Shown here: positions 11,887 through 41,506 of the stretch, in pieces
Numbering within the stretch: position 1 is the stretch's first letter
How the letters are laid out: each line of letters begins with the position of its first letter
NCBI GenBank assembly: GCA_019752535.1
Contig: JAIEMA010000019.1
Location: 62,001 to 126,000, forward strand
DNA from: Bacteriovoracaceae bacterium
GTDB taxonomy: Bacteria; Bdellovibrionota; Bacteriovoracia; Bacteriovoracales; Bacteriovoracaceae
DNA: 64,000 nt
Reading direction: 5' to 3'
Made by a program: the position numbers and the translations under genes
The notes under the pieces: model-generated
The model's database searches: none
What the model saw: only the letters and a program-made list of their open reading frames with translations
What the model was told of the DNA's origin: nothing

Positions 11887-11945
11887 ACCAATTCCTTTGT
11901 ACCCGATTTCAAGATTATCTATTATCCTAACATAGGATAAAAAAA

Positions 11946-13082: not shown

Positions 13083-14079
13083 TTGCAGAAATAATAAGAT
13101 TGAGAATGAAAAAAATTATCAATTTTAATAACCAATGAATCGAAAGATCCCATTTTAAAAAAACGCGTATAAATAAATTATTCCATAGATACAAACCGTA
13201 GGACCAAAGTGCTATCTTATGGATTGGCATAAATATAAAATCAGGGATTCTAATCGAATAGGTAGAGATGAGAAGAAAAGAAAAAGCTAAAGCCAGAATT
13301 GAATATAAAAAGACGATATTAAATCCGTAGATATCAGGACCAGATATCCCTAAACTCACAAAAAGAAGAGACAAGCCTAAGATAGCCAATACTTTTCTTG
13401 AACCAGTTGAGATTTTTTCCCAAGACTTAAAGCTTGCAGCGAGGAGAACTCCTGCAGAGATACCATCAAGGTGAGTATGAAAAGGAAATCTTACTAAACT
13501 TGAAAGAACAATCTCGTTGGCGCTATTCATGGCACCAGACTTCCAAATAAAAAATCTAGCAATCACACTCATCAAAACAGGTAAGCACCAAATTTTTAAA
13601 TTATTGGATTTCACACCAAACACAAAAAAAACAATAGGGAATAGTATATAAAACTGCTCCTCGATACAAAGTGACCAAGACTGTACAAAGTCATTGAGGT
13701 TAAAATAATTTTGAAAAAAAACGAGAAAGGAATAATTCCAGTCGTTAAAAGGGAAACCAAAATAAGGTTTAATAAATAAATAGACGAAAAGAACAAGAAA
13801 ATAGAGAGGAAATGTTCGAAACCATCTCTTAATCCAAAATGTTTTTAAGCCTTGAATGACTCCCATTGTTGAATTGAGAGAAAACACTTGATTGGCGATA
13901 AGAAATCCTGAAAGAACAAAAAAAAGATCCACCCCAATCCACCCGTATGAAAAGAGTCTAGAAATAGACTGAGGAATTTCTGGTATGGCCTGACTGGAGT
14001 GCAAGAGAAGAACCATTAAAATAGCAAAAAACCTTAAAAGATCTAACCCTTGATTTCTTTTTAAAGAATTCACATTCAT
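12994..14079 (-). CDS. Acyltransferase 3 family membrane protein
   Basis: 361 residues, about ten transmembrane helices. GLDLLRFFAILMVLLLHSSQ (residues about 11-30) contains the R/H catalytic-type motif, YGWIGVDLFFVLSGFLIANQ follows, and QSWSLCIEEQFYILFPIVF is the third family hallmark. It probably O-acetylates the surface glycan. It is translated with the upstream glycosyltransferase (4-nt overlap at 14076-14079). The final residues are encoded antisense to the glycosyltransferase at 11946-13082. Confidence 0.92.
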   Translation of the reverse strand: MNVNSLKRNQGLDLLRFFAILMVLLLHSSQAIPEIPQSISRLFSYGWIGVDLFFVLSGFLIANQVFSLNSTMGVIQGLKTFWIKRWFRTFPLYFLVLFVYLFIKPYFGFPFNDWNYSFLVFFQNYFNLNDFVQSWSLCIEEQFYILFPIVFFVFGVKSNNLKIWCLPVLMSVIARFFIWKSGAMNSANEIVLSSLVRFPFHTHLDGISAGVLLAASFKSWEKISTGSRKVLAILGLSLLFVSLGISGPDIYGFNIVFLYSILALAFSFLLISTYSIRIPDFIFMPIHKIALWSYGLYLWNNLFIRVFLKWDLSIHWLLKLIIFFILNLIISAITYYGVEKVFLIYRDKVLARLAFEKKASN

Positions 14080-24830: not shown

Positions 24831-24983
24831 ATGGAAAAGAAGAAAAAGAAATACGTGAAGCCTGAAATCAAGAAAGAGCCCCTTGTAACCTTTGGCGCCG
24901 TTTGCAATGGCACTACGACCGGTGGACGAAAAGCGGTCACCACTCCCCCTGCTAGATGTAATTCAGCTCGTCTCATTTCCTAA
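24831..24983 (+). CDS. Putative RiPP precursor peptide
   Basis: A 50-codon gene too short for ordinary ORF calling. GGA (24821-24823) lies 7 nt before the ATG. The leader is very basic (MEKKKKKYVKPEIKKEPL) with Y8-V-K-P11, a YxxP motif like the one bound by PqqD-type recognition elements in lasso leaders. The probable core (from about residue 21) starts FGAVCNGTTTGG and ends PPARCNSARLIS; it has two Cys (25, 43), each followed by Asn, is rich in Thr/Gly, and ends in Ser50. The stop and the kinase start share TAATG, so kinase translation depends on this frame. The neighbouring kinase, S26-type peptidase, PqqD and radical SAM genes support a modified peptide. Function of the product is unknown; cleavage site is a guess (after the Leu18-Phe21 region). 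Confidence 0.78.
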   Translation: MEKKKKKYVKPEIKKEPLVTFGAVCNGTTTGGRKAVTTPPARCNSARLIS

Positions 24984-25864
24984 TGAGCTCTTTTGAGTCG
25001 AAATTACAGTTTCTCAATCAGTATAACTTTGATTCCCCCCAATTTTGTTATCATCTCAACCTTAATTACTATGGACTCAAAGTTAGGTTTGAAAGTGATG
25101 ATTTAAATTTTATTGAAGCGATAAAAGCTTACCATCCTTCAAGCTGGGTGAGCCAAGAAGATGGCGATGTCACATTAAGGTTTATATCCTACTCTGTTGC
25201 TTTTGAGAGATCATTCTTCGAGGAAATTTCACCAGAATTCAATGTTTTTAAATCAAACAATCATCTTTGCTGCATTCAAAGAGACTTCATTGGTTGGACA
25301 CAAAATGGAAACGTCTTCACGTTTGTGACTGATCTCACCATAGACGATGGCTATTTCAATTGTATGAGATGGGCCATTCCAAGTTTGCTTATCAAATCGC
25401 AAGCCATGGTGGTGCACAGCTCAAGTGTGGTTGACGATGAAGGCGCTTGCTTTGTTTTTTTGGGCCAAAGTGGGGCCGGAAAAACAACGACGGTTTCAAA
25501 TTTTAAAAATAGAATTGTCTTAGGTGATGATATGAATATTTTCACCACTCATCACTCAAAATCTCTCGTCCAGTCTGGCGCGATTGGTGGGCAGATTGTG
25601 TTTCCAGAATTTGATAAAAAATTTGCTCTTAAAGGCATGTTTTGGCTAAGGAAGAACGAAAAACTTTCTCTTCGTAAGCTTTCTCTGGAAGATGCACGTT
25701 TAAAAATGTTGGGGTCTCTTGCCAATATTTTCTTTGGATTTGAAAGCGAGGATTTCACCAATCAGGTCATGAATAATATTGATAATTTAATTCAAAGTGT
25801 ACCTATGTTTGAGTTAAGTCTCATGAAAGGTGATGACTTTTGGCCATTGATTCAAAAAATTTAA
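24983..25864 (+). CDS. HprK-like P-loop kinase of the RiPP cassette
   Basis: 293 residues. VVHSSSVVDDEGACFVFLGQ leads into Walker A GQSGAGKT (161-168) and LGDD (180-183) gives the Walker B-like acidic pair, the core of HPr-kinase-related proteins; the regulatory HPr kinase N-domain is absent. Homologues occur in lasso and other RiPP clusters; in paeninodin biosynthesis such a kinase phosphorylates the C-terminal Ser of the precursor. Here the precursor also ends in Ser, so phosphorylation of Ser50 is a natural inference, not shown. The start overlaps the precursor stop by 1 nt. The 3' end overlaps the peptidase gene by 25 nt. Confidence 0.8.
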   Translation: MSSFESKLQFLNQYNFDSPQFCYHLNLNYYGLKVRFESDDLNFIEAIKAYHPSSWVSQEDGDVTLRFISYSVAFERSFFEEISPEFNVFKSNNHLCCIQRDFIGWTQNGNVFTFVTDLTIDDGYFNCMRWAIPSLLIKSQAMVVHSSSVVDDEGACFVFLGQSGAGKTTTVSNFKNRIVLGDDMNIFTTHHSKSLVQSGAIGGQIVFPEFDKKFALKGMFWLRKNEKLSLRKLSLEDARLKMLGSLANIFFGFESEDFTNQVMNNIDNLIQSVPMFELSLMKGDDFWPLIQKI

Positions 25865-26232
25865 TTTTCACCTACAAGGGTGAAAGTATGAAAACGACCT
25901 TCCGTGAAAACCAAAAAATTACGGCGTCACCTGTGATTCATCTTCAAATCGGATGTATTTATGTCTTTATCTATAATGATGAACTGACAATACATAGACT
26001 TATGAATATTGGAGAACATTCACTCAAATTCAAGGGTGATATGTCTCTATGTTACGAAACAATCCCGGCCAATTCTGTTTTAGGTTTTGTGCCTAGTCGC
26101 TACAACTTTATTTATCTTTTTCTCTCACCCTACAATCAATTAAATCAGCCGAAGTTTATAAGATTTTTAAGCCGATTTTTGATGATTCAATTTTCTAAAA
26201 TATTTCCTCAACCAAATAAAATCATACTTTAA
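25840..26232 (+). CDS. S26/Sec11-like Ser-His peptidase of the RiPP cassette
   Basis: 130 residues from a TTG at 25840; a TGA two codons upstream blocks any earlier start, and AAAGG at 25826-25830 is well placed. This start keeps YKGESMKTTFRENQKI, where GESM (14-17) matches the GxSM nucleophile motif of S24/S26 peptidases; the ATG of SM itself would remove it. ELTIHRLMNIGE then KFKGD match the His (Sec11-type base) and KGD motifs in order. In related RiPP clusters such small peptidases are candidates for leader removal. The C-terminus is hydrophobic and basic (RFLSRFLMIQFSK). Alternative: a non-catalytic homologue. The last 66 nt overlap the convergent nucleotidyltransferase gene. Confidence 0.62.
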   Translation: MAIDSKNLIFTYKGESMKTTFRENQKITASPVIHLQIGCIYVFIYNDELTIHRLMNIGEHSLKFKGDMSLCYETIPANSVLGFVPSRYNFIYLFLSPYNQLNQPKFIRFLSRFLMIQFSKIFPQPNKIIL

Positions 26233-27033
26233 AGCATCCAATAAATTCTTTTTTGTTAAGTGCTTTAGCAGGTAATATTTAATTTTATGAGACTGGGGAT
26301 CGAGCAGGAAATCAAAACTATAGAATCTCTCCATAGAGAACGTGTCAGATCCTATATGGGTATCGAAAAAACGATTTAAAAAATGAAAAGTAATCTCAAA
26401 ACTTTTTAAATGCCCTCTCGATTTTGCTAGTGAAATGAGACCACTGAGGGTTTCTGGATTCTGCTTAATGAAGAGTGCAATATCTATAAACCAATTTAAT
26501 CTTAGAAAAGTATGCTGATAACTCAAATGGTAAATCAAATAGTAGAGATGCTCTTGTTTGGATAGTGATTCACTCTCGAAGATGGGTTGAATTGTTGAAT
26601 CTCGATAGAGACGAGAGTGTAACTCAAATACAACCTCATTCCCTTCGATCATTTTAGAAAGCGTCATCTTGTAATCAGTCTTATCAACCTTTTTATACCC
26701 CTGATCGAAAAGAACTTTTCTTAAGTTTTCAATTTGATCTGTCAGAATATCAATATCCGACATTTTTCTCATTCCATAATCTTGAAATATTGTCTTAAGA
26801 AGATAGGTCCCCTTAATGGGAATACACTGAATATTTAACTTTTTGGAAAGAGAGAGAAGTTGATCCAACTCTCTCATATAAATTCCATTCAGTAGATTTG
26901 TCTGGAGATATAGAGACTCAATATAGGAGTTTCTCGCCTCACTTTCAGTGACAAAGAAATACCCTGCAAGTCCATGCTGCTGCACAAACATGTCTCTGTG
27001 AGTTAAATCCCTAAAATGAGGCCAAATATCCAT
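26167..27033 (-). CDS. Nucleotidyltransferase family protein (NTP_transf_5-like) of the RiPP cassette
   Basis: 288 residues. CIPIKGTYLLKTIFQDYGMR followed by KMSDIDIL (residues about 70-97) is the family signature: KG, then R and DxD, the acidic pair coordinating metal in the polymerase-beta fold. VVFELHSRLYRDS adds the third acidic/His segment typical of this group. Such proteins recur in lasso and radical-SAM peptide clusters beside HprK-like kinases, with no established reaction; nucleotidylation of peptide or intermediate is conceivable. It is on the opposite strand, divergent from pqqD-like gene (37 nt apart) and overlapping the peptidase gene's 3' end. Confidence 0.75.
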   Translation of the reverse strand: MDIWPHFRDLTHRDMFVQQHGLAGYFFVTESEARNSYIESLYLQTNLLNGIYMRELDQLLSLSKKLNIQCIPIKGTYLLKTIFQDYGMRKMSDIDILTDQIENLRKVLFDQGYKKVDKTDYKMTLSKMIEGNEVVFELHSRLYRDSTIQPIFESESLSKQEHLYYLIYHLSYQHTFLRLNWFIDIALFIKQNPETLSGLISLAKSRGHLKSFEITFHFLNRFFDTHIGSDTFSMERFYSFDFLLDPQSHKIKYYLLKHLTKKNLLDALKYDFIWLRKYFRKLNHQKSA

Positions 27034-27070
27034 GCTTTATTTTATCGCGAGAAGTAGATAGAATTCTAGT

Positions 27071-27337
27071 ATGAAAACCTATATTCGCCGTCAGGTTCCA
27101 TTTAAGGTCATGGATGAAATCTGCTATATTATTGATAGTTTTGAAACGAAGGCTGCCTATAAGCTGAACACGACCTCTACTTCCCTTTGGCTTTTTTTAA
27201 GTGAGCCGCGGACTTTCGATGAAATTCTGTCTCATTTTAGATCTGAATTTGAGGATATGACCCAAGCAGATCTTGAAGCTGATGTTGAAGAGGTTATTCA
27301 AGAATTTATAAAAATGTCGTTGATCAATGAAGCCTAA
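27071..27337 (+). CDS. PqqD-family RiPP recognition element
   Basis: 88 residues. The winged-helix PqqD pattern is clear: an N-terminal beta segment (RRQVPFKVMDEICYIIDS), LNTTSTSLWLFLSEPRTFDE (the aliphatic ...t..a...w.ll....t..ei stretch) and an acidic helix DLEADVEEVIQEFIKMSLI. PqqD-like proteins bind the precursor leader and present it to the modifying enzyme; the YVKP motif of the 50-residue peptide is the expected ligand. It overlaps the radical SAM gene by 11 nt, so the two proteins are probably made in equal amounts and act as a complex. Confidence 0.88.
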   Translation: MKTYIRRQVPFKVMDEICYIIDSFETKAAYKLNTTSTSLWLFLSEPRTFDEILSHFRSEFEDMTQADLEADVEEVIQEFIKMSLINEA

Positions 27338-28397
27338 AAGAAACACTCATTATCACGATTTAGATCACTCCCACTTTCTTGCCGAATTAGGTCAAGAAGC
27401 TTTCAAAAAAAACATCCCTCTTTTTACTACACTGGAACTTTCTCAAGATTGTAATTTTAAGTGTCACCACTGTTACAACTTTGATCGAACTTCAAGTGCA
27501 AGGCCCAATACTGGACAGACTCCACTTACTTTTGAGGAGTGGAAAAACGTCATTGATCAAGTGATGGATGAAGGAGCTTTTTATATCTGTTTTACAGGTG
27601 GCGAAGTTTTTCTCTATCCAAGACTTTGGGAGCTTATCGATTACGTGAATCAACGTGATGGCATTGTTAAACTTAAATCCAATGGGGCCCTACTCACCCA
27701 GGAAAATGTAGAGAGACTTATTCAACATAAGGTATCGAGCCTAGAAATTAGTCTCTATGGTATGTCAGAAGAGAGCTATCGTTCATTCACTGGAAAGAGT
27801 GGAATGTTTGCCAAAACGATTGATGGTATTAAAAGACTAAATCAAAACAATATATCACTCATTTTAAATATTATTCTTCATCGCTTAAACTTCCACGAAC
27901 TCCAAGAGATGATCGACTTTTCAACCTCACAAAACATTCCTTACAATTTTTCAGACGAGATCACAAAACGATATGACGACACTGACTCCTCATTAGAATT
28001 TAATCTCACTGATGATCAATACCGATCACTTTTGCGAGGGCTACATAAAGAGTTTTTTCAAGTAGAGAATGATCTAAGCAAGCATTCTTTCCAGTGCTCC
28101 TGCGCTCGAAATGTTTGTGGAATTAGTTTCAGTGGAGATATTTTCCCTTGTATCGGAGCACCAGTAAAAGCTGGTAATTTTAAGACTGACTCATTTAAAA
28201 AGACATGGAATGAATCCTCTGTCTTCTTAAAGATAAGATCCATCAACAATAATGATTTCAAAGAATGTGTGAAATGTGATGTGGCGGAATTTTGCAACAG
28301 AAGCTCGGGTTCAGCTTTAATTAATACAAATAATTATTATGGCTGTGATCCCACTTCTCTTCGAATTGCAAAATTACGAAAGGATGAGATGGGCTAG
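27327..28397 (+). CDS. Radical SAM/SPASM peptide-modifying enzyme
   Basis: 356 residues. Cys42, Cys46 and Cys49 (DCNFKCHHCY) form the CxxxCxxC motif binding the catalytic 4Fe-4S cluster; CFTGGEVFLYP is the SAM-binding GGE motif. The C-terminus has a Cys-rich SPASM region (CSCARNVCGISFSGDIFPC, then CVKCDVAEFC and YYGC) for auxiliary clusters. Enzymes of this layout paired with PqqD make C-S, C-C or C-O crosslinks or epimerise residues in RiPP precursors. Two Cys in the precursor would allow thioether formation, but the reaction cannot be read from sequence. Its 3' end overlaps the ABC permease gene by 24 nt. Confidence 0.9.
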   Translation: MKPKRNTHYHDLDHSHFLAELGQEAFKKNIPLFTTLELSQDCNFKCHHCYNFDRTSSARPNTGQTPLTFEEWKNVIDQVMDEGAFYICFTGGEVFLYPRLWELIDYVNQRDGIVKLKSNGALLTQENVERLIQHKVSSLEISLYGMSEESYRSFTGKSGMFAKTIDGIKRLNQNNISLILNIILHRLNFHELQEMIDFSTSQNIPYNFSDEITKRYDDTDSSLEFNLTDDQYRSLLRGLHKEFFQVENDLSKHSFQCSCARNVCGISFSGDIFPCIGAPVKAGNFKTDSFKKTWNESSVFLKIRSINNNDFKECVKCDVAEFCNRSSGSALINTNNYYGCDPTSLRIAKLRKDEMG

Positions 28398-29177
28398 CTT
28401 TCTCTTTATTTTGATGCCCTCTAACCATTTTTTGATTTTCTTCACAACAAATGCCGTCATTAAAATGTAAGCAATGTAATAAAGATATTTTGCGGCCATC
28501 TCCTGTGGGCTTAATTGAAGTCCTAGTCTTGCAAATAAAAGAGCCAAGGTTTGTGGAAACAGCCAAACCGCATAATCTTTAATAAAAGGTGCCATATAGC
28601 TTACGGGAAAGTAGGCGCCACCAATGAGAGCAAGGACTGAATTTATTGAATAAAAAACTTTAAGACCGCGATTGTAACAGCTGTAAAAAGAGAGCACCAG
28701 TTCTGTGACAGTAATCATAGACATTAATGTGAGAGCTTGAGAGAGAACAAAATTGACATAAAACAGATGTGGGACTTGAGTTTCTAAAAGAAAAAATCCA
28801 CCTAAGAAAATACATATCATTCTTAAGAGAGGTCTCACCATTTCATTCAAAGCTAATTTTCTAATAATACGATAAGGATCAATCTGACTTGATTTTAGTG
28901 TGACTATAAATCCAGAAGAAATGAAGGCCAAAAAGATTCGAATGGAGTTCTCAAAATAGGCTAACGGTAACAGCAAAGCGACTTCTCCTATCAGGAGAAA
29001 TTCAAAATAATTTCGAGAAGTATTTTGTAATTTATCTGAAGGGACGAGCTGACTCGTCATTTTAAAGAGATATAGAGTCAGGCAAATCGAGAAAGCCTCG
29101 CCCAACAACAATAATGCTCGATTTTGGCTGTTACCAATGATCATTCCTAAAAGCCACTTTATGAGATGACTAAACAT
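28374..29177 (-). CDS. ABC-2-like permease, probable peptide exporter subunit
   Basis: 267 residues, about six hydrophobic helices, with the soluble loop pattern of small ABC-2-type permeases; YSCYNRGLKVFYSINSVLAL and GGAYFPVSYMAPFIKDYAVW resemble the late helices in those families (GGxxxP near the last pair). No enzymatic motif. It lies 1 nt downstream of an ABC ATPase gene on the same strand and next to the radical SAM gene, so export of, or immunity to, the modified peptide is the best guess. An unrelated surface-glycan role is possible given the flanking loci. Confidence 0.65.
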   Translation of the reverse strand: MFSHLIKWLLGMIIGNSQNRALLLLGEAFSICLTLYLFKMTSQLVPSDKLQNTSRNYFEFLLIGEVALLLPLAYFENSIRIFLAFISSGFIVTLKSSQIDPYRIIRKLALNEMVRPLLRMICIFLGGFFLLETQVPHLFYVNFVLSQALTLMSMITVTELVLSFYSCYNRGLKVFYSINSVLALIGGAYFPVSYMAPFIKDYAVWLFPQTLALLFARLGLQLSPQEMAAKYLYYIAYILMTAFVVKKIKKWLEGIKIKRKLAHLILS

Positions 29178-29178
29178 T

Positions 29179-29778
29179 CTAAGACAACTCCAAACGATAA
29201 TCGATTCCCGAAATCTCGTCCAACTTCGATTGGGAAGTTAGAAAAATGATGGATTCGTCTTTTCTCTTCATTAGATCGTTAATGATAAGATCCTTATTTT
29301 GAGAATCTAGGAAGCTAAAAGGTTCATCCAGTAATAACAATTGGGGGTGCCAAAATGTGTGAAGATAATATTTAAAAATCTGCCTCATCCCATTTGAGAG
29401 AGTCATACCTTTTTGAGGCAAGCATTTCTGAAAAATACTACTGTTATAAACATCATTTTTGTCTAATGGCTTATTTTTTTGAATGCAAAAGAGACGTAGG
29501 ATATCTTCACAAACCATTTCATCATGTAGCCCATTAGATTGAAGATGGAAAAATGAAATATCATTGATTTCATTTAGCGTTATTTTCCCATAGCTCACTT
29601 GATGATTTTCGAGAAGATTTAAGAATGTCGTTTTTCCCTTCCCGTTTCCACCATAGATTAAATTAAGAGAGGGCAAAATATCTTTGCTGTAGTGATTTAA
29701 GATAAAATTGTTATCTATCTGTATACTGAGTGATTTTATTTTTACCATCATTACAATTAAAGATAGCATTAGAAGCAT
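29179..29778 (-). CDS. ABC transporter ATP-binding subunit, small
   Basis: 199 residues, short for an ABC ATPase (usually 220-250). Walker A is GGNGKGKTT, signature LSNGMRQ (variant of LSGGQ), Walker B LLLLDEPFSFLD, and a switch region IIFLTSQSKLDE in which the usual His is replaced by Gln. No good ribosome-binding site distinguishes the first ATG (29778) from two ATGs ten codons on (MMVKIKSL); the later start is plausible. It pairs with the permease at 28374-29177. Confidence 0.82.
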   Translation of the reverse strand: MLLMLSLIVMMVKIKSLSIQIDNNFILNHYSKDILPSLNLIYGGNGKGKTTFLNLLENHQVSYGKITLNEINDISFFHLQSNGLHDEMVCEDILRLFCIQKNKPLDKNDVYNSSIFQKCLPQKGMTLSNGMRQIFKYYLHTFWHPQLLLLDEPFSFLDSQNKDLIINDLMKRKDESIIFLTSQSKLDEISGIDYRLELS

Positions 29779-29820: not shown

Positions 29821-30132
29821 ATGTTTCCAGGTGCTATTCAAAAAATTATTTCTTCCTACATGATTCTTGGCCTTATCCCATTGGATAAAGTTCTGCATTT
29901 TGTTGTAGGCGCTATTGTAACGATGATTCTAAGGGCCTTTAGAGTGCGTATGAGTCTTGTTTTCGTGGCTGTACTGTTTATATGCATACTTAAGGAGATT
30001 ATTGACCTGAGAACGCTTCAAAGCAGAGTGCTTGAGTCAATTATTGACTCTTTAGTCACTTTTATCTATCCGGTCTGTTTATTGATGGTGTCTTGGATTA
30101 AAAAAAAGTCTATTGAATCTAATCAAACTTAG
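29821..30132 (+). CDS. Small membrane protein, VanZ-like
   Basis: 103 residues with three hydrophobic segments. LDKVLHFVVGAIVTMILRAF near the N-terminus matches the DKxxHF pattern of VanZ-like and related small membrane proteins, and the KEIIDLRT...ESIIDSLV spacing of acidic residues between helices fits too. AGTAGG is placed upstream of the ATG. The role is unknown. It is a lone plus-strand gene between the exporter pair and the polysaccharide co-polymerase, overlapping the latter's 3' end by 14 nt. Confidence 0.6.
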   Translation: MFPGAIQKIISSYMILGLIPLDKVLHFVVGAIVTMILRAFRVRMSLVFVAVLFICILKEIIDLRTLQSRVLESIIDSLVTFIYPVCLLMVSWIKKKSIESNQT

Positions 30133-31618
30133 GGGCGTAACCAATAACTCGAAGGTCCTCATAACATTTTTCAAACTCTCTCTCGTCATAGATTTTATCA
30201 TCTAATAGATAAATGATCATCAGAGCAAGGAACATAAAGAACCCTACAAAGAAAAAGCTAAAAGACATAATCTTTATAGCGGAATTGCGCTTAAATGAAC
30301 TGACCTCAGGACCATAGTCTTCAAACATCACGTTGGCTCTTGCACCAGACTTGAGCATTCTAAGTCCTACAAGCTTGGTCTCCATCTTTTTTAAATACTC
30401 AAGATCGGGCTTCAGCGCCAATAGTTCGTTATCCAGTTTCGCTTTCTGAGATAAGAGATAACTCAAGTCGCTTTTAGCTTTTTCTGACTCTGACTGGAGC
30501 TTTTTTAATTTTTGCTTTGTAATTGTGTAATCAAATTCATAATCAGTTTGATTACTCATTTGGGAATCAATGAACTTCTGTTCATGAGCGACGTTTCTAC
30601 TGATCTTACCTAAACTCTGAAGTTCAGCCTCACTCTTCTTGAGATCGGTCTGAAGTTGGCCCAATATCACATTGTCAGAAGGAGATCGTGAACTCTCTGG
30701 AATGGAAGAGAGACTTTCTATATTTTGCTTCAGCTTTGCAATGTTTTTAGTAATGGCCTGGTATTGCTCAAAACCTTCTTTACTCTGATCTCCCACGGTC
30801 GTATTCGCCGCGACCTCAGAGGTTTTCAAACGAACCTCTTGAAAGTGATTCTGGTGAATCTCCCCGTTGAGACGGACAATAATGTCTTTCATCTTATCAT
30901 GCTGACGTGCAATGCTTGCTTCAAGAGACTCAAGAGATGCCACTTTCTCAAAGCCGCCCTTTGTATAGACATCTTTCCTAGAAGTATTAATTAATTCTTC
31001 TGTATGAGAAATTTTCTTTTCATACTCTTCTAGTGCCATATTTAGTCGATTTTCTTTAATGGCAACGATGAAATAATTTATAAACTCAGTAGTCGTTAAA
31101 GCTGAACGAGTCGTCACCGTAAGTACAAATCTACCTGTTCCAATTTCACTTTCAATGTCATACATTCCAGAGATCACTGCTTCAAGAATTCTTACTTTAC
31201 AATCGCGGCTTGAACAGCTTGCAAAGAGATCATCCGGCTTTCTTAAAGAATTAGTTGCAGGACTGTTAAAGTCTAGCTTTGTGAAATTGGGAGAATCAAC
31301 CATCTTCTCCGCAAGAAGATGAATAAATTTGAAATTGCTAACCATGGCCTTCACTTCATTGTGGTTCACAAAATTTGAAGCCACATCACCAACCAATTCG
31401 TCTATTTTACGACCTCCGCCTGTGTCCTCTTGGGAAGTCATTTTAAAAAATACTTTCTTCGAATGAACCGTGGTCTGACTGAAATAGAAATAAGAAGTTA
31501 AAATCAGGAATGCACCTACGGCAAGACGAGTAACCGTCTTGTAACGTTTCGCTAACTTCACCATAAAGGCGAAGTCGATTAGCGTTACATCATGTAGAAG
31601 TGCATTTATCTTTTTCAA
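30119..31618 (-). CDS. Wzz/GumC-like polysaccharide co-polymerase
   Basis: About 499 residues from the TTG at 31618, which overlaps the upstream stop as TTGA and has GGGGAGG 9 nt before it; an ATG seven codons earlier is possible but would sit on that ribosome-binding site. An N-terminal helix (VTRLAVGAFLILTSYFYF) and a C-terminal one (FFFVGFFMFLALMIIYLL) flank a long periplasmic coiled-coil region (about 180-420, EKKISHTEEL..., KLKQNIESL..., KQKLKKLQSE...). This is the PCP family layout that sets glycan chain length. There is no fused kinase domain; the two adjacent cytoplasmic P-loop-like proteins take its place. Confidence 0.82.
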   Translation of the reverse strand: MKKINALLHDVTLIDFAFMVKLAKRYKTVTRLAVGAFLILTSYFYFSQTTVHSKKVFFKMTSQEDTGGGRKIDELVGDVASNFVNHNEVKAMVSNFKFIHLLAEKMVDSPNFTKLDFNSPATNSLRKPDDLFASCSSRDCKVRILEAVISGMYDIESEIGTGRFVLTVTTRSALTTTEFINYFIVAIKENRLNMALEEYEKKISHTEELINTSRKDVYTKGGFEKVASLESLEASIARQHDKMKDIIVRLNGEIHQNHFQEVRLKTSEVAANTTVGDQSKEGFEQYQAITKNIAKLKQNIESLSSIPESSRSPSDNVILGQLQTDLKKSEAELQSLGKISRNVAHEQKFIDSQMSNQTDYEFDYTITKQKLKKLQSESEKAKSDLSYLLSQKAKLDNELLALKPDLEYLKKMETKLVGLRMLKSGARANVMFEDYGPEVSSFKRNSAIKIMSFSFFFVGFFMFLALMIIYLLDDKIYDEREFEKCYEDLRVIGYAPKFD

Positions 31619-32388
31619 AACGCAAAGCCTCCCCACCATTTAGATTTTTTCACGGGCTTCTCCACTTGTAGTTTATCAAAAACTACGCCTTTTATATTGA
31701 CGCCAAAACCGGAAAAATATTCCTTTAGCTCACTTACGTCTTTGGAATTACTTGCGGCTTGAGAAATGATTATTGTCAGTGACTCAATAAAGCTTAAAGC
31801 CTGTCTATAAGTGAAGGATTTATTTTTGAAGGTATTAAGCGTTGGTGAGTCCCAGAATACTATATCATAACTATCAAGTAGGCTCTTCATTGCTCTTTCA
31901 AACTCAAAATTTGGCTTCTCTTTGCTATTTAGATGGATCAGGTCATCCAGATCAATGAGATCAAAGTGCTCTCCAAAATGATTAACTTTTACAGTTCGAG
32001 TTGAATTTTTCACTTGGACATCTTCTTTGGTCGCTTCATTCATCACATCGACAAACATACCCATATTCAAGGTGTCGGAAATGATAAGAATCTTCATATC
32101 AAACAAATGATCAAAATAGCATGCGAGAGCTAAAACTGTTCTTTGTTGAGAAGACTTATAATCTGTTGAAGTAACAGCAAAACTTTTCACTCCATTTTTG
32201 AAGTCTTCAAGATACGATTGGCCTATTTTTGCTAATTCCATCGGATTACCTACTTGGTAGAAATAGTCTGAAGGTTTATGCTCTTTTGATTTTAAAAGCT
32301 TAAGCTGTCGCTCTTTATGGCGAATCTTTAGCGCCTCAGAATCTTCTGAGTGTAGCGCTTCTTGATTTGCTCTAGCTTCTGACGACAT
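31615..32388 (-). CDS. BY-kinase-like (CpsD/MinD fold) protein lacking Walker A
   Basis: About 257 residues from ATG 32388 (GAGG 9 nt upstream); a TTG at 32403 overlapping the previous stop is the alternative. After a basic N-terminus, KSFAVTSTDYKSSQQRTVLA (from about 70) occupies the position of the CpsD Walker A (TSxxxGEGKST) but has no GxGK; MKILIISDTLN stands where LLIDxDxR should be; YDIVFWDSPTLN replaces the Walker B DTPP. No Tyr-rich tail. It therefore looks like a pseudo-ATPase partner of the Wzz-like protein. It is coupled to the Wzz gene by a TTGA overlap. Confidence 0.65.
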   Translation of the reverse strand: MSSEARANQEALHSEDSEALKIRHKERQLKLLKSKEHKPSDYFYQVGNPMELAKIGQSYLEDFKNGVKSFAVTSTDYKSSQQRTVLALACYFDHLFDMKILIISDTLNMGMFVDVMNEATKEDVQVKNSTRTVKVNHFGEHFDLIDLDDLIHLNSKEKPNFEFERAMKSLLDSYDIVFWDSPTLNTFKNKSFTYRQALSFIESLTIIISQAASNSKDVSELKEYFSGFGVNIKGVVFDKLQVEKPVKKSKWWGGFAF

Positions 32389-32399
32389 TAACTTAAACC

Positions 32400-33470
32400 T
32401 CAACCTTGGCTAACAATAACTCCGTTAATTTTTACTTTATAATTCTCAAAAAACTCTTTAAGCGAATGAATCTCTGTAAACGTGCTTTTCTCAAGACCTA
32501 CAATTAAGCTCACATTTTTTACAATCTGCAGGATTGGGAAATAGGTATCGTAGTATTCTTTCATCTCAACAGGATCAGGAAGATCAAAAAGAACCAGATC
32601 ATAGTCTGCAAATAAGTTCTGCATTAAATAGACCTGATCTTTAATATTTTGAGCAATCGACTTTTCACGAATCTCTGAGACTTCAAGATAGTTCAATCCC
32701 TCATGGCAATAAACATCATATTGAAAATCACTAATGGCACTTACAGACATCTCTTGGCGATTTTCATCGGTTTTGAAACTTGAAAAGATCGAACCATTCA
32801 TCGACGCACAAACGATAAGAATTTTTAAATTCTCATGGTAATGAATGAAAGAAGCGATACCGAGGATAGAGCGTTTTTGAGCCTCATCGCTTTTTAGATG
32901 AGAGAAAGAAAACTGATGAGTGCCATCTTTGAAAGCTTCGTAATAAGAGTTACCAAGCTTAAATAGACCAGGGCCATCTTTTGCCCTAAAGAAGAAGCTA
33001 TTCTTCTTACGGGTAATCTCTTGTCTATAAACAAGAACTTCATTTTCTACTTTTCTAAATTCTGCCTTTAGCTTCTTCTTTTCTTTCTTAAGATCAATTT
33101 GAGGGGCTTTTAATTGCTGAGGGATCTCGCTAGAAGGAGCACTCTCATTAATTACTAAACGAGTCGTTTTGCCTGAAGAGTTTTTATGACTAACAATACT
33201 TGCTTCAGTGACTTTGAGCTTCTCTAACTGCACTTCCTGAATCTCAGTCGCATCAATCATGTTTTTATTCACAAGAGTTAATGACTGATCTTTTTTTACA
33301 TCAACAAGCTTGTAGTTATTTTCCTCAAGCTTGGTCATGACTTTGTCGGAAACTTTTTGATTTGAAATTGTGTGAAAAACAAGCGATCCATTTAAAAACG
33401 ATTCTCTACTCCAAGATATGTTATCTAGGTAATCTGATGAATCTTGTTTTAAAATAGGTGCCTCGCCCAT
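32400..33470 (-). CDS. Second BY-kinase-like protein lacking Walker A
   Basis: About 356 residues. ATG at 33470 is preferred because GAGGAGG lies just upstream; an ATG eight codons earlier is less likely. The first 170 residues are unique and charged (KKEKKKLKAEFRKVENEVLV), then comes the same degenerate fold as the next gene: HQFSFSHLKSDEAQKRSILG instead of Walker A, LKILIVCASMNGSIF, and YDLVLFDLPDP at the Walker B position. FENYKVKINGVIVSQG matches FSGFGVNIKGVVFDK in the neighbour, so the two are paralogues. Together they may form an inactive or regulatory heteromer that controls glycan length. Confidence 0.62.
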   Translation of the reverse strand: MGEAPILKQDSSDYLDNISWSRESFLNGSLVFHTISNQKVSDKVMTKLEENNYKLVDVKKDQSLTLVNKNMIDATEIQEVQLEKLKVTEASIVSHKNSSGKTTRLVINESAPSSEIPQQLKAPQIDLKKEKKKLKAEFRKVENEVLVYRQEITRKKNSFFFRAKDGPGLFKLGNSYYEAFKDGTHQFSFSHLKSDEAQKRSILGIASFIHYHENLKILIVCASMNGSIFSSFKTDENRQEMSVSAISDFQYDVYCHEGLNYLEVSEIREKSIAQNIKDQVYLMQNLFADYDLVLFDLPDPVEMKEYYDTYFPILQIVKNVSLIVGLEKSTFTEIHSLKEFFENYKVKINGVIVSQG

Positions 33471-33583
33471 GTCTCCTCCTCGGAGCTTTATCAAAGAGCT
33501 CTTAAAACTTTATCATTTCGCGAGGTTTGGTCCTATTCGAGGCAAATAGTACCGGGATATTGATTTGGATCAGTTGAAATTTC

Positions 33584-34744
33584 TTATAGAAAAATTCGGT
33601 CTATTGCCTCAAGGGCTTGATTTTCAATTTCTCGTGCATGCTGGTAGGCAGATTTTTCCAGCCTTAAACGGTTCTCTTTATAGAGCGTCAGGCCTTCAAT
33701 GGAGTCAAAAAGACCTCTATAGTCGTGCAAAATATATTTAAGTCCACACTCACTCTCTTTCAACAATTCAGAGCTTCCTCCTAGAGACGTAGAGATAACT
33801 GGCACACCAGACAGAAAGGCTTCAAGTACAATTCTTCCAAAGGGTTCAGGCTTTAAGGAGGGATGAATCAGAAGATCAATCTTTTGATAGATCTTATCTG
33901 GTGAAACGTGCCCACCCCATTCGACAAGTGAGCAATTCAGCTTTTTAGTTAAATTCAAAAGATCTCTACTGTAATCATTACTTCCCTGATCTGTTTGATA
34001 GATATTGCTACCAAAAAAAATGATTCGCTCTATGCCAATGTTTCGTAATTCTTTTTCGTAAAGTTTTGACATTAAAACGACAGAATGAAGACCTTTCCAA
34101 GCCGCATGCATCGCAACCACACCAATTGTTTTCACCTCGCCGCCGCTGGGTTTCCTTGGCATATCTCCAGCAAGATTGTAGACCACTTGAACAGGGAGCC
34201 ATGGAAAGACTTTTTTAATTTCTTCAGCAACAGAGTAAGAATTCGCAATTATTTTCACTTCAAAGTTTTTATGAAATTTATTAGCAATCGAGAGATACTT
34301 TTGAATTAATTTAAAATAACCACGCTCAGGATAATCACGAAAATGCCAGAGAAGCTTACATTTGGCTCTAAAAATATTTGCCCATATCAGTATGGGAACA
34401 CTCGCCTTATTTCCATTAGCATAAAATGTGCTGTAGTTTTTGAAAATCTCATTCCAATGCAATAAATAGTAAATAAGCGCTGGTGCAAAAAAAAGAAGTT
34501 TGAATAGATTTGCTCTTTTCTCTCTCGAGACGGAGTAGAGAAAGAGTGGATATTGAAAGGACTTAATGTCATTGAGCCCACATCTTCTCAATTCATCTGC
34601 AAGTGGGGATTTGTTAGAATTTAAGTTTGGAATATAGATTGTGAATTCTTGCTTTCTAATCTGGATTTTCAGCTGCTCAATTAGGCTTTTTTCAGCCCCC
34701 CCGAGTTGATCAGTATTAAATATCACGGCAACTTTCTTGTTCAT
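33584..34744 (-). CDS. Glycosyltransferase family 4
   Basis: 386 residues. VIFNTDQLGGAEKSLIEQLK is the acceptor loop (GGAE), VVAMHAAWKGLHSVVLMSK opens the donor domain, and IHPSLKPEPFGRIVLEAFLS (about 297-316) has EPFGxxxxEAF. LLWHFRDYPERGYFK fits the usual His in the first domain. It starts inside the stop of the upstream glycosyltransferase (4-nt overlap). The 113 nt between this gene's end and 33470 hold no gene and may carry the promoter of the downstream pseudo-kinase/Wzz unit. Confidence 0.92.
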   Translation of the reverse strand: MNKKVAVIFNTDQLGGAEKSLIEQLKIQIRKQEFTIYIPNLNSNKSPLADELRRCGLNDIKSFQYPLFLYSVSREKRANLFKLLFFAPALIYYLLHWNEIFKNYSTFYANGNKASVPILIWANIFRAKCKLLWHFRDYPERGYFKLIQKYLSIANKFHKNFEVKIIANSYSVAEEIKKVFPWLPVQVVYNLAGDMPRKPSGGEVKTIGVVAMHAAWKGLHSVVLMSKLYEKELRNIGIERIIFFGSNIYQTDQGSNDYSRDLLNLTKKLNCSLVEWGGHVSPDKIYQKIDLLIHPSLKPEPFGRIVLEAFLSGVPVISTSLGGSSELLKESECGLKYILHDYRGLFDSIEGLTLYKENRLRLEKSAYQHAREIENQALEAIDRIFL

Positions 34745-35745
34745 GATAAAATTAGCTCACGAAAAAGTTTTGTCCAGTTATCTAAGCCATGACTTGCGAT
34801 CGTGTGATTGAAGCAATTTTGAGAAATTTTTTTATAACTACTCTCGTTGAGTCTTTCAACAAGCGCCACTATGGACTTTTCGCTTAGATCATTTAAAACC
34901 CAACCTGTCTCATTATCATGAACCGATTCTGGCAGGCCCCCTGTTGAGAGAACTATACTAGGTGTCCCAAACATGCCAGCTTCTTGGACAACCTGCCCAA
35001 AGCCTTCAAAAAAGCCATTTTTTGAGTCATCCAGCGATAGCAGCAGATTGATGTGTGCTTCCTTGAGAAGATTGTCTCTAAGTTCATTTGAAGGATTTAC
35101 ATAGGATCTTATATTTATCTTTGATGAATGAAATTTTTTATCCGTGACAGTAATAAACTCAACCTCTCGTCCCGTTACTCTTTGAATTTCTTCACAAAGT
35201 TTAATTGCTCCCCTGAAGTTTTTATGAGGGACATCGCGAGCCACACAAATGAACTTGAGAGCTCCTGTATCCCAATTTTTTGGACAAAACTCTTTTTTAC
35301 TAATATCGATGGCCATATGAAAGATGAGATCTCTCGAGTAATCCGGTCTTAGCCCTTTTGAAATAAGCGTTTGGTAGGTAAAGTTTGAAATAAAAACATT
35401 GAAGTAAGCTTTTTCAACACGTCGAACTTTAATTTTTCTTGTGATTTTTTTGATTACGTTTTTGAAAAAATTTGGTGAGTAAAAAAGTATCTCTGCCCCA
35501 TTTACAAAATTGATCACTTTTGCGGAGGATTCAGGCATATACATATGAAAACCTGAATGAATATTGAGAATATGGCTGTATTTCTGAATCTTCTCATTTG
35601 GAAAAGTGATGACATCCTTATAATTTTTCCATACGAACAATTCATACTCAATTTTTAGCTCACGCAAAACTTTTTCTATATTTTGAGTATGTGAGCTAAG
35701 CCCACCAAGCTTTGGAAGATAATCTGGAGTTGTTAACAGCAGCAA
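34741..35745 (-). CDS. Glycosyltransferase family 4-like
   Basis: 334 residues. TTPDYLPKLGGLSSHTQNIE is the GT4 opening, FICVARDVPHKNFRGAIKL starts the donor domain, and GFFEGFGQVVQEAGMFGTPS has the Glu pair (EGFGQVVQEA). It lies 9 nt downstream of the epimerase gene and overlaps the next glycosyltransferase by 4 nt. Use of the UDP-xylose or related sugar made by that epimerase would be a reasonable guess, not evident from the sequence. Confidence 0.88.
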   Translation of the reverse strand: MLLLTTPDYLPKLGGLSSHTQNIEKVLRELKIEYELFVWKNYKDVITFPNEKIQKYSHILNIHSGFHMYMPESSAKVINFVNGAEILFYSPNFFKNVIKKITRKIKVRRVEKAYFNVFISNFTYQTLISKGLRPDYSRDLIFHMAIDISKKEFCPKNWDTGALKFICVARDVPHKNFRGAIKLCEEIQRVTGREVEFITVTDKKFHSSKINIRSYVNPSNELRDNLLKEAHINLLLSLDDSKNGFFEGFGQVVQEAGMFGTPSIVLSTGGLPESVHDNETGWVLNDLSEKSIVALVERLNESSYKKISQNCFNHTIASHGLDNWTKLFRELILS

Positions 35746-35754
35746 AAGTCTACC

Positions 35755-36723
35755 TCACTTAATGTCGTAAAACTTTGCCAAATCACCCTTGAGCAGATCA
35801 TCAAAGTAGGCAATTGTCTTCTTTAGGCCTTCCTCAAGCTGGATCGTAGGCTCCCAATTGAGTACTTGTTTGGCAATCGTGATGACTGGTTGCCTTTGTT
35901 TTGGGTCATCAGATGGAAGTGGCTTGAAAATTATTTTCGAGCTGGAATTTGTGATTTTTAAAACAGATTGAGCTAATTCAAGCATTGTAAACTCGTTTGG
36001 ATTTCCAATGTTTATCGGCCCAGTCACTTCATCTGAAGTGTTCATTAATCTAATTAGTCCTTCAATCAAATCGTCTCTATAGCAGAACGATCTTGTCTGC
36101 AACCCATCACCAAAAATGGTGATGTCCTTGCCCGTTAGAGCTTGCATAATAAAATTACTCACAACTCTTCCGTCATTGGGGTGCATTCTTGGCCCATAGG
36201 TATTGAAAATTCGCGCAACTTTTATTCTGACCTTATGCTGGCGGTGATAATCAAAAAAAAGTGTCTCTGCACATCTCTTACCCTCGTCATAGCAACTTCT
36301 GATACCTATTGGATTGACCTTGCCCCAATAACTCTCTGGCTGAGGATGAATCTCTGGATCACCATAAACTTCACTCGTTGAGGCTTGAAGAATTTTTGCC
36401 TTTGTTCGCTTTGCCAAGCCAAGCATATTGATTGCACCGTGAACGCTAGTTTTAGTCGTTTGAACTGGGTCAAACTGATAATGAACCGGAGAAGCAGGAC
36501 AAGCTAAATTGTAAATTTCATCAACTTCCACAAAAAATGGAAATGTCACATCGTTTCTCACAAATCCAAAATAGGGATTACTCATGAGATGAGCGATGTT
36601 TTGTTTTTGACCTGTAAAAAGATTATCTAAACAGAGGACATCATGCCCTTGATCAAGCAGTCTTTCGCATAAATGCGATCCAAGAAACCCGGCACCACCC
36701 GTAACTAAAATACGCTTTCTCAT
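35755..36723 (-). CDS. UDP-glucuronate decarboxylase / UDP-xylose synthase-type epimerase
   Basis: 322 residues from ATG 36723, chosen because AGGA lies 5-6 nt upstream and [20 protein letters not shown] then follows immediately; upstream in-frame ATGs would add an unconserved tail. GxxGxxG NAD site is at residues about 8-14, STSEVYGDP and [11 protein letters not shown] provide the Ser/Tyr/Lys catalytic set (YxxxK), and [16 protein letters not shown] is the signature that separates UXS from other SDR sugar enzymes. It should convert UDP-glucuronate to UDP-xylose in the cytoplasm, supplying a pentose donor to the neighbouring glycosyltransferases. Confidence 0.87.
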
Positions 36724-36845
36724 GAAGTCCTCTCTCATTAAACCATTAAGGTAGAACTCCATTGTAACCGCATGATATGACAGCAACAAAATTTCTTTGA
36801 AATGGAATAAAATGCTAGAATTTATACTTGAGCCAAACGATTCAA

Positions 36846-37934
36846 TTATTGAGAAAATTTATCAGTTAGTTTTCTCTTAAGACGCACCTGTAGCGGCACT
36901 TCAAAGAAATAATAGAGCAGAAGACTTAATATAAGCACCGAGCTTAGATAAGATACACCAACTCCCACAGAGGGTTCAAAAGCAGTGAAATAGGTTTTAA
37001 GGGGTTGATGAAGAATATAGCTTGCATAGCTTGAAAGTCCCAGCTGCTGAATGATTCTTGAGGTGAAAAGCTCACTTCCCTTAATACCTTCATAGTAAGA
37101 GGACATGATGAGGAGGGCAAAAAAAGGAAGGGCAACCATTTGAGAGAAGAGTTTATCTTCAATAAGTGAATTCGACATGGCCAAAAAGATTGATAAAATA
37201 ATGCTGCTCCAAAATACGAATGTACAATTTCTCTTTATTCCCAATGTTAGTTTGTTTTCTTGCTTCACCACTTTAAATAAATAACACCCGATAACAAACT
37301 CCGATAATCTCAAGGGTGGGAAGCTTCTCCATAACGTTTTCATATAAAGAGAGTCTGAATTTGTATTGAAGATCTTAAACAACACGAAAAACAAAATGGC
37401 GGGCATGAGATAGAGGATAAAGACAGTACGCAGATTATATTTTGTTCTATTTATCCTAGGCATTAAAAAGATGAGAGCTGTGTAGAAGAACATCTCGCAT
37501 GAGAGTGACCAGGCCGGAGAATTCCAAACGGGAGTTAAATTTGGGACCCATGACTGGAGCATCAAAATATAACCTGTACCACTAATAAGAATTTTTAAAG
37601 TAGCCGTATTAATTTCATATTGTTCAAAAAAATATTTTACCACCCGAGGAGCATCGATAAGCATGGCAAGAAAATAAAGGGGGTAAAGCTTTGCCAATCT
37701 GCCGGAAAGATAGGCGATCTTTTCTTTTTTAGTCTCAAGTTTATCTTGATAAACATAAGCCAGCAAAAATCCGGAGAGAAGAAAGAAAAATGAAACGGCT
37801 GTTTCGCCTTTTGAGAGAAAATTTTGTATTGGGGAGTAAAGAGTGAAGGAGCCAAAAAGATAAAGATTGTGAAATAGGATCACATGGATCGCAGCATAAA
37901 AGCGCAAACCGGTTAAAATTTTAATATTCTTCAT
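36846..37934 (-). CDS. Acyltransferase 3 family membrane protein
   Basis: 362 residues, about ten helices. [20 protein letters not shown] carries the conserved R and [21 protein letters not shown] and [20 protein letters not shown] are the other hallmarks. The C-terminus ([17 protein letters not shown]) resembles that of the acyltransferase at 3945. It likely acylates the surface glycan. It is the first gene of the minus-strand run down to 30119, but 122 nt separate it from the epimerase, enough for another promoter. Confidence 0.9.
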
Positions 37935-40612: not shown

Positions 40613-41506
40613 ATGAATAGAATTCGAGTTGCATCCCTTCAGTACTTTATCCGTCCCGTTAAATCATTTGAGGACTTTGGTCTTCAAGTGGAGTCGTTTG
40701 TAGAAACGGCAAAAGACTACAAGGTTAAAGTTTTAGTTTTCCCAGAATACTACGCTGTTCAATTGCTCACGCTTGGACAAATCAAAAGACCAATTGCAGA
40801 ACAGATTAAGGATTTAGCATCTCAAGAAGAGAGAATCGTTGAATTCATGTCTTCATTGGCCAAAAAGTTTAATATTCTTATTGTCGGCGGCTCAATTCCC
40901 GTTTTCAGCAAAGATAAAACTAAAGTCTTCAATCGCTGTTATGTCTACGGCTCTGATGGAAGCTATGATTATCAAGATAAACTCCACATGACTCGTTTTG
41001 AAAAAGATGAATGGTTTGTCAGTCCCGGCGATCGTTTGAAAATTTTTGAAACTGATTTCGGAAAATTTGCCGTGACCATTTGTTACGATGTCGAATTTCC
41101 AGAAATTGCCCGCGCTGCCGCTCGCCTAGGTGCTCACTTTTTAGTCGTGCCAAGTTGTACAGATGACCGCCAAGGTTATCTGCGAGTTCGCTACTGTGCT
41201 CAGGCACGTGCTATTGAAAATCAAATGTATGTTATCCACTCGCCTTTAGTAGGCTCTCTCCCAACGGTACCAGCTGTGTCACTGAACTATGGTCAAGCAG
41301 CTATTTATACCCCAAGTGATTATTCTTTTTCTCGCGATGGCCTTCTTGCAGAAGGTGCCGTGAATCAAGAAAGTATGATTATTGGAGATATTAATATTAG
41401 TCTCATTGAAGACTCGCGTGAAAGCGGAACGGTTCTACCTCTACGAGATAGTCAAACGACTGGCGAACTTTTAAAGGTTGCCGATCATGTTAAACTCAAA
41501 ATCTAA
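40613..41506 (+). CDS. Carbon-nitrogen hydrolase (nitrilase superfamily)
   Basis: 297 residues. The Glu-Lys-Cys triad is visible: VLVFPEYYAVQ (Glu, about 45), YQDKLHMTRFE (Lys, about 125) and VTICYDVEFPEIARAAA (Cys, about 160). Family members hydrolyse amides or transfer ammonia; the substrate is not evident. In the Bacillus YhcX type, a nitrilase domain is fused to an N-terminal GNAT domain; here the GNAT domain is instead in the next protein, whose start lies within this gene's 3' end (20-nt overlap), so the pair keeps the association. Confidence 0.9.
   Translation: MNRIRVASLQYFIRPVKSFEDFGLQVESFVETAKDYKVKVLVFPEYYAVQLLTLGQIKRPIAEQIKDLASQEERIVEFMSSLAKKFNILIVGGSIPVFSKDKTKVFNRCYVYGSDGSYDYQDKLHMTRFEKDEWFVSPGDRLKIFETDFGKFAVTICYDVEFPEIARAAARLGAHFLVVPSCTDDRQGYLRVRYCAQARAIENQMYVIHSPLVGSLPTVPAVSLNYGQAAIYTPSDYSFSRDGLLAEGAVNQESMIIGDINISLIEDSRESGTVLPLRDSQTTGELLKVADHVKLKI

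Follow-up and report, generated by a model that had tools for sequence, protein, structure and literature searches.

Gene content of the locus

A compact gene cassette for a ribosomally synthesized and post-translationally modified peptide (RiPP) lies at 24831-29778 of a 64,000-nucleotide stretch of DNA, hereafter the window, from a Bacteriovoracaceae bacterium (assembly GCA_019752535.1, contig JAIEMA010000019.1, positions 62,001 to 126,000). The original prediction, made from the sequence, placed here a 50-codon precursor gene together with genes for an HprK-like kinase, an S26-like Ser/His peptidase, a nucleotidyltransferase, a PqqD-type recognition protein, a radical S-adenosylmethionine (SAM)/SPASM enzyme and an ATP-binding cassette (ABC) exporter. 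All the named genes are present, as judged by open reading frames (ORFs), Pfam and NCBIfam matches, alignments and fold models (Table 1). The proposed limits of the unit hold for these genes and fail upstream, where the functional unit, as we read it, includes the gene of a giant C25 peptidase-like protein; this gene, overlooked by the prediction, is the most informative neighbour of the cassette. The 3' end of the giant gene lies 9 bases before the precursor ATG, the kinase start overlaps the precursor stop (TAATG), and the PqqD gene overlaps the radical SAM gene.

Table 1. Features of the RiPP cassette and of the adjoining giant gene (positions in the window)
Feature	Position	Strand	Properties
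Giant secreted/surface protein, 2,468 aa	17415..24821	+	Repetitive N-terminus, C25 propeptide-like and Peptidase_C25 domains, MYXO-CTERM-like tail
RiPP precursor, 50 codons	24831..24983	+	Leader YxKPxI (Y8, P11); core C25-N-G-x3-GGRK-x5-P-x2-C43-x6-S50
Core region of the precursor, residues 25-50	24903..24980	+	Per-column conservation
HprK/PEPCK-superfamily kinase	24983..25864	+	His145, Lys167, Asp182, Asp183; putative C-terminal Ser kinase
S26B/S24-type Ser/His peptidase	~25840..26232	+	GxSM, HR, KGD; putative leader peptidase; start codon uncertain
Nucleotidyltransferase-like protein	26167..27033	-	PF14907, E=2e-26; proposed phospho-Ser extension (hexose or nucleotide)
PqqD-family leader-binding protein (RiPP recognition element, RRE)	27071..27337	+	PF05402, 5e-10
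Radical SAM/SPASM enzyme	27327..28397	+	PF04055 7e-23, PF13186 5e-6; CX3CX2C at residues 42-49; putative core cross-linker
ABC-2 type membrane subunit of exporter	28374..29177	-	Homologues match PF01061; recurs with the cassette
ABC exporter ATPase subunit	29179..29778	-	PF00005 2e-8; recurs with the cassette

Conservation of the precursor and its enzymes

A profile built from an alignment of 18 precursors (A1) was searched against 369 genomes of the window's phylum, which are the sample for all phylum-wide counts given here. The precursor was found in 34 of them (E down to 3e-28), with one copy per genome except in G130, which has two. The bearers are scattered over 22 genera and at least six families, and the occurrence of the cassette is sporadic: none of the four further genomes from the window's genus has it. 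When the window genes were compared by tblastn with the first relatives, the precursor homologues were 45-60% identical and lay beside the kinase gene. The kinase profile (A3) recovered the same 34 genomes, plus G075, in which the kinase is present and the precursor lies beyond the end of the contig, and gave a weak match in G366; the first 143 genomes, when searched with the radical SAM protein, showed the distribution seen for the precursor and the kinase. The prediction that the precursor is conserved where the enzymes are is thus borne out, with the kinase found in 34 of 34 precursor genomes, and almost all loci with sufficient context show linkage of the radical SAM gene to this precursor. 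A reading of the 50-codon frame as a chance ORF is ruled out by its conservation in 34/369 genomes together with the fixed core. The precursor has no match in Pfam or NCBIfam. Plasmid searches with the precursor and with the kinase gave no matches; with the radical SAM protein they retrieved only unrelated SPASM proteins, including that of a Thiodictyon YcaO/TfuA cluster, and a contig search with the same protein found a single locus, which is unrelated.

Over 32 precursors, Y8, P11, C25, G31, K34 and C43 are invariant and N26, G27, G32, R33, P40 and L48 nearly so. The core pattern, C-N-G-x3-G-G-R-K...P..C...L-x-S, is almost fixed, with Ser as the last residue in 30 precursors and Thr in the remaining 2. 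Of the two CN pairs that had been proposed as hallmarks, the first is upheld (N26 is kept in 28/32) and the second is not (N44 in only 12/32). Since the core is conserved at least as strongly as the leader, one constant product is probably made across the precursor family. In L121, L124 and L125 the precursors are divergent, their loops being shortened or poly-Gly; they still follow the pattern C...GGRK...C...L-[ST] and possibly form a subclass.

The catalytic residues of the tailoring enzymes are also retained. Among the kinases aligned in A3, H145, K167 and D182 are invariant and D183 is near-invariant. The Pfam and NCBIfam matches of the window kinase are limited to PEPCK/HprK-type P-loop models, members of its family match HprK_rel_A, ScmC and HprK_rel_B, and its AlphaFold2 model (predicted local distance difference test, pLDDT, 89) has PEPCK and HPr kinase as fold matches. 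In the S26-like peptidase, the motif residues S, M, H, R, G and D (GxSM/HR/GD) are kept in 21/21 proteins; the PF00717 match (1.4e-4) is just below the cut-off, and the AlphaFold2 model (pLDDT 91) matches LexA/signal-peptidase folds with probability 1.0 and an E of only ~1e-3. The Met encoded by the ATG at 25889 is part of the catalytic GESM motif, so the true start of this protein lies further upstream.

There is one radical SAM gene per cassette, and the CX3CX2C motif is intact in 30/30 of the proteins. These genes form two monophyletic groups, of 18 (the window type) and 12 members (support 99/99 and 100/99), which are only ~25% identical to each other and both accompany the same precursor core. 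Genome G130 has two complete cassettes, one per radical SAM lineage (L057 on C38 and L065 on C100), and their cores are divergent.

Gene content across loci was scored with profiles built from these families. Complete loci repeat the precursor, the kinase, one or two PqqD proteins, the radical SAM enzyme and the S26-like peptidase, usually with the ABC exporter, and the PF14907 nucleotidyltransferase is present in nearly all of them; gene order and strand are shuffled between loci. The ABC-2 subunit of the window itself has no Pfam or NCBIfam match.

Co-occurrence with a giant C25 protein

The giant protein matches PF01364 (2e-68) and PF08126 (5e-7) and has both the domain and the His-Cys dyad of peptidase family C25; the catalytic His2270 and Cys2306 and the GC of the tail are kept in 24/24 giants. 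The tail combines a GC motif, with an invariant Cys, with a transmembrane helix and a basic end (alignment A2), and strong scores for it are found only on giants, as a rule one per genome. Together with the relatives L066-L083 and L142-L155, it belongs to a widespread family of surface proteins of 2,500-3,500 aa that have a PorU-like C25 domain at the C-terminus and a tail of their own; G010 encodes three giants and G055 two.

Strong homologues of the giant were found in 31/369 genomes. Both giant and precursor are present in 27 genomes, the precursor only in 7, the giant only in 4 and neither in 331 (Fisher P=2e-30; the counts are genomes and not independent events, and kinship inflates the P value). 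The corresponding numbers for high-quality genomes are 22, 2, 2 and 209. Among the discordant genomes, G158, which is of high quality and was scored as precursor only, has an N-terminal piece of a giant beside the precursor, 66% identical to that of G156, and G075, scored as giant only, carries the rest of the cassette. The giant frequently adjoins the cassette, on either strand. In G019, precursor, giant and kinase follow one another in this order on one strand; in G047, the 3' end of the giant gene overlaps the S26 gene, beside the nucleotidyltransferase and ABC genes, and the precursor, kinase, PqqD and radical SAM genes lie on a different contig from the giant.

This near-constant co-occurrence suggests that the giant and the cassette work together. 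The interpretation that we favour, with moderate confidence, is that the cassette represents a new RiPP class with one conserved product that is dedicated to the giant cell-surface C25 peptidase. Several observations weigh against such a dedicated partnership. The cassette occurs without a giant in G037 and G270, the former, which has a divergent precursor, being the sole good-quality genome truly without one, and G281 and G305, with a giant and no cassette, are real exceptions as well. In several genomes the two lie on separate contigs or at a large distance, and they therefore need not be co-regulated. The match of the giant to the NCBIfam PorU model NF033707 (1e-57) reaches 195.7 bits against a cut-off of 420. 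Finally, the position aligned with the Arg-specificity residue of RgpB, which we take to be Asp163 in the usual numbering, is not conserved in giants, so that this rule lends no support to Arg specificity of the C25 domain or to a preference of the giant for Arg or Lys.

The lack of linkage between giant and cassette in G010, G055, G063, G130, G255 and G360 speaks for a different account, in which the same pathway operates, the released peptide acts on its own as a signal or an antimicrobial, and the giant has no more than an ecology in common with it, such as contact with prey or surfaces. Secreted peptides typically show this arrangement of a RiPP gene accompanied by an ABC exporter, and the giant can occur without the cassette. 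However, antagonistic peptides have variable cores and this core is near-fixed across families, and no immunity-like gene was seen recurring among the cassette loci. Release of a free peptide is also hard to match with a co-occurrence that is near absolute and with the coupling of the S26 gene to the giant in G047, and we regard this account as possible but doubtful.

Another explanation is that the cassette is a dedicated anchoring or processing system whose phosphoglycopeptide is covalently joined to the giant, for example by the giant's C25 domain, much as anionic lipopolysaccharide (A-LPS) is joined to the cargo of the type IX secretion system (T9SS). In its C25 domain the giant is similar to the T9SS sortase PorU, the strong-scoring GC tail is limited to giants, the S26 gene is coupled to the giant 3' end in G047, the kinase and the nucleotidyltransferase could provide a phospho-sugar handle, and cassettes are often found near glycosyltransferase and Wzc genes. 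However, the giants of two genomes without the cassette still carry the tail Cys, so the tail can do without the cassette, which is therefore not simply a tail processing system. We regard an anchoring or processing system of that kind as improbable, and the idea that the GC tail depends on the cassette is unsupported. A related proposal, in which the peptide is a prosthetic or anchoring group that is joined to the giant by the giant's own PorU-like C25 domain, or that locks this domain, and which would amount to RiPP-dependent maturation of a surface protein, appears unlikely to us.

A proposed biosynthetic pathway

Under the favoured partnership of peptide and giant, biosynthesis would begin with leader recognition. 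Binding of YxxP leaders by PqqD-type RREs is well established, and the YxKP leader of the precursor would be bound by the PqqD protein of the cassette. The radical SAM/SPASM enzyme may then cross-link the C...GGRK...C core; a thioether from one or both of the invariant Cys seems most likely, a guess prompted by the presence of two such residues in the core. In lasso clusters, HprK-like kinases (PadeK, ThcoK and PsmK) phosphorylate the C-terminal Ser of the precursor, for which a His-Lys-Asp-Asp set is required, and PsmN, annotated as a nucleotidyltransferase, puts one or two hexoses on the phosphate (PMC9266682; PMC8498205). The cassette kinase has the same His-Lys-Asp-Asp, judged by the published residues rather than by the sequences of lasso kinases, and the features expected for a lasso-type Ser kinase are present, that is, an HprK/PEPCK fold and a substrate with a conserved C-terminal Ser. 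By analogy, we infer that the C-terminal Ser would be phosphorylated by the HprK-like kinase and that a hexose or nucleotide would be added to the phosphate by the PF14907 protein, probably yielding a phosphoglycosylated product. The S26B-type Ser/His peptidase would cut off the leader, at a site predicted near A23-C25, and the peptide would be exported via the ABC-2 exporter.

Outside the inner membrane, the peptide may act with the giant C25 protein, most likely as a tight-binding ligand, inhibitor or substrate: the loop between the two Cys has a conserved Arg-Lys at its centre, with an invariant Lys, which would suit binding by a gingipain-type enzyme. The link between peptide and giant is a genetic one that does not tell ligand or inhibitor, substrate and anchor apart, and any effect of the peptide on the peptidase is, like the type of cross-link, our guess.

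The radical SAM enzyme of the window matches the AlbA, SkfB, StsB, PapB, PqqE and MftC models, none of them at the curated cut-off. The presence of PqqE and MftC among these matches, and a core conservation that resembles that of cofactor precursors, would agree with a cassette for the maturation of an enzyme, the giant or another, in which the 50-codon ORF encodes a cofactor-like peptide comparable to PqqA or to mycofactocin. However, C25 peptidases have no known need for an organic cofactor, and the long core (~26 residues) with its C-terminal Ser tailoring suggests that the whole peptide is retained; we consider a cofactor role very unlikely.

RiPP pathways have nearly always been interpreted as sources of free antibiotics, toxins or cofactors. 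The RiPP described here, with its near-fixed core, appears to be genetically tied to a single giant surface peptidase in several families of a phylum, probably that of the predatory bacteria. If confirmed, such a partnership would be unusual, and it offers a concrete, testable case of RiPPs as protein partners, be it as regulator, substrate or anchor. The cassette also provides a second setting for the C-terminal Ser kinases and nucleotidyltransferases that are puzzling members of lasso clusters, as well as a set of substrate and enzymes whose radical SAM lineage varies around an almost unchanged core.

Variant loci and genomic surroundings

At 7649-15405 of L064 (G025:C176), in a genome without a giant, lies a sister cassette that combines these enzyme types with a different precursor. 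Its precursor (11933-12178, minus strand) has a YVKPQI leader and an unrelated core with several Cys and a C-terminal Ser; judging from this one case, the C-terminal Ser goes with the kinase, and the giant with the CNG...GGRK...C core. An ORF of the same locus (12475-13377) carries a DIDLDYF motif, which presumably recalls the UPF0489 arginase-like proteins.

Directly 3' of the cassette, the window encodes chain-length/Wzc-like proteins (30119-33494), two GT4 glycosyltransferases, an epimerase and an acyltransferase (30119-37934 in all). Glycosyltransferases like those at 33584-35745 are found near 7-8 cassettes, a WecA-like gene near 7 and Wzc-like genes near 5. A polysaccharide setting is thus recurrent and not required: the linkage suggested by the original prediction applies to about a third of the loci and is not universal. 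PilZ-like proteins occur near 6 cassettes, with small neighbours resembling cyclic di-GMP (c-di-GMP) receptors at, for example, L046:763-1122, L050:15410-15757 and L051:2686-3048. Farther downstream in the window, 41478-44483 encodes a phosphoenolpyruvate carboxylase of 1,001 aa with an apparent N-terminal GNAT acetyltransferase domain. A search of the window against Rfam found no RNA family.

Comparison with known systems

By its enzyme set and its core, we rate the cassette as a new RiPP class. A literature search, with most subscription papers outside its reach, found no matching account, in line with the prediction of an undescribed class. The phosphorylated and phosphoglycosylated lasso peptides, such as paeninodin and pseudomycoidin, share with it a YxxP-like leader, a PqqD/B1 protein, an HprK-like kinase, a C-terminal Ser, a nucleotidyltransferase and an ABC exporter. 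The kinase, peptidase, nucleotidyltransferase and PqqD types had been likened to those of lasso clusters, and the likeness is confirmed: a lasso-type PqqD/B1 leader-binding protein (PF05402) is present, and the related PqqD proteins find their best match in the lasso B1 model NF033536 (the matches to NF033536 and NF033530 are sub-threshold). Lasso systems, however, have a B2 protease and an asparagine-synthetase-like cyclase where the cassette has a radical SAM/SPASM enzyme and an S26-type Ser/His peptidase, and the two invariant Cys and the fixed core are features of the cassette. As anticipated, the B2 protease (PF13471, Transglut_core3) was found in 0/10 cassette genomes and no asparagine-synthetase-like cyclase among the cassette ORFs; Asn_synthase matches lie elsewhere in the genomes, and two cassette genomes have none. 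Membership in the lasso peptides is ruled out by the lack of B2 protease and cyclase, and the radical SAM enzyme would, with respect to its role, stand in place of the cyclase. A lasso-like product, with its ring closed by the radical SAM enzyme or by a remote cyclase, would be in keeping with the B1-like PqqD proteins and the lasso-type kinase and nucleotidyltransferase; yet the missing B2 protease, the position of the asparagine-synthetase-like genes outside the cassette and the lack of a conserved acidic residue at core ring position 7-9 render it scarcely credible.

SynChlorMet, as represented in NCBIfam, shares the combination of an HprK-like protein (ScmC), a PqqD protein (ScmD) and radical SAM enzymes (ScmE/ScmF). 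ScmC is matched by 13/19 of the kinases, and ScmD is the best NCBIfam match of the window PqqD protein. Membership is ruled out by scores far below the cut-offs, which are 18.2 bits against 100 for ScmD and 35.5 against 125 for ScmC (L061). SynChlorMet has two radical SAM enzymes, whereas the cassette has one, which is far below the ScmE and ScmF cut-offs. We know of no S26 or PF14907 partner in SynChlorMet, and no published description of it was found in the literature search. Sactipeptides, ranthipeptides and other SPASM RiPPs have in common with the cassette a SPASM radical SAM enzyme and a Cys-containing core, and the cassette enzyme stays below every curated cut-off; to our knowledge, no tailoring by a kinase or a nucleotidyltransferase exists in the sactipeptide and ranthipeptide classes.

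On the side of the giant, MYXO-CTERM/myxosortase proteins share a tripartite tail of Cys motif, transmembrane helix and basic end; TIGR03901 (MYXO-CTERM) is not among the matches of the giant, and the resemblance is one of architecture alone. The T9SS sortase PorU and the gingipains share with the giant the C25 catalytic domain and its His-Cys dyad; the giant departs from them at the position of RgpB Asp163 and adds a large repetitive N-terminus and the tail with its GC motif, transmembrane helix and basic end.

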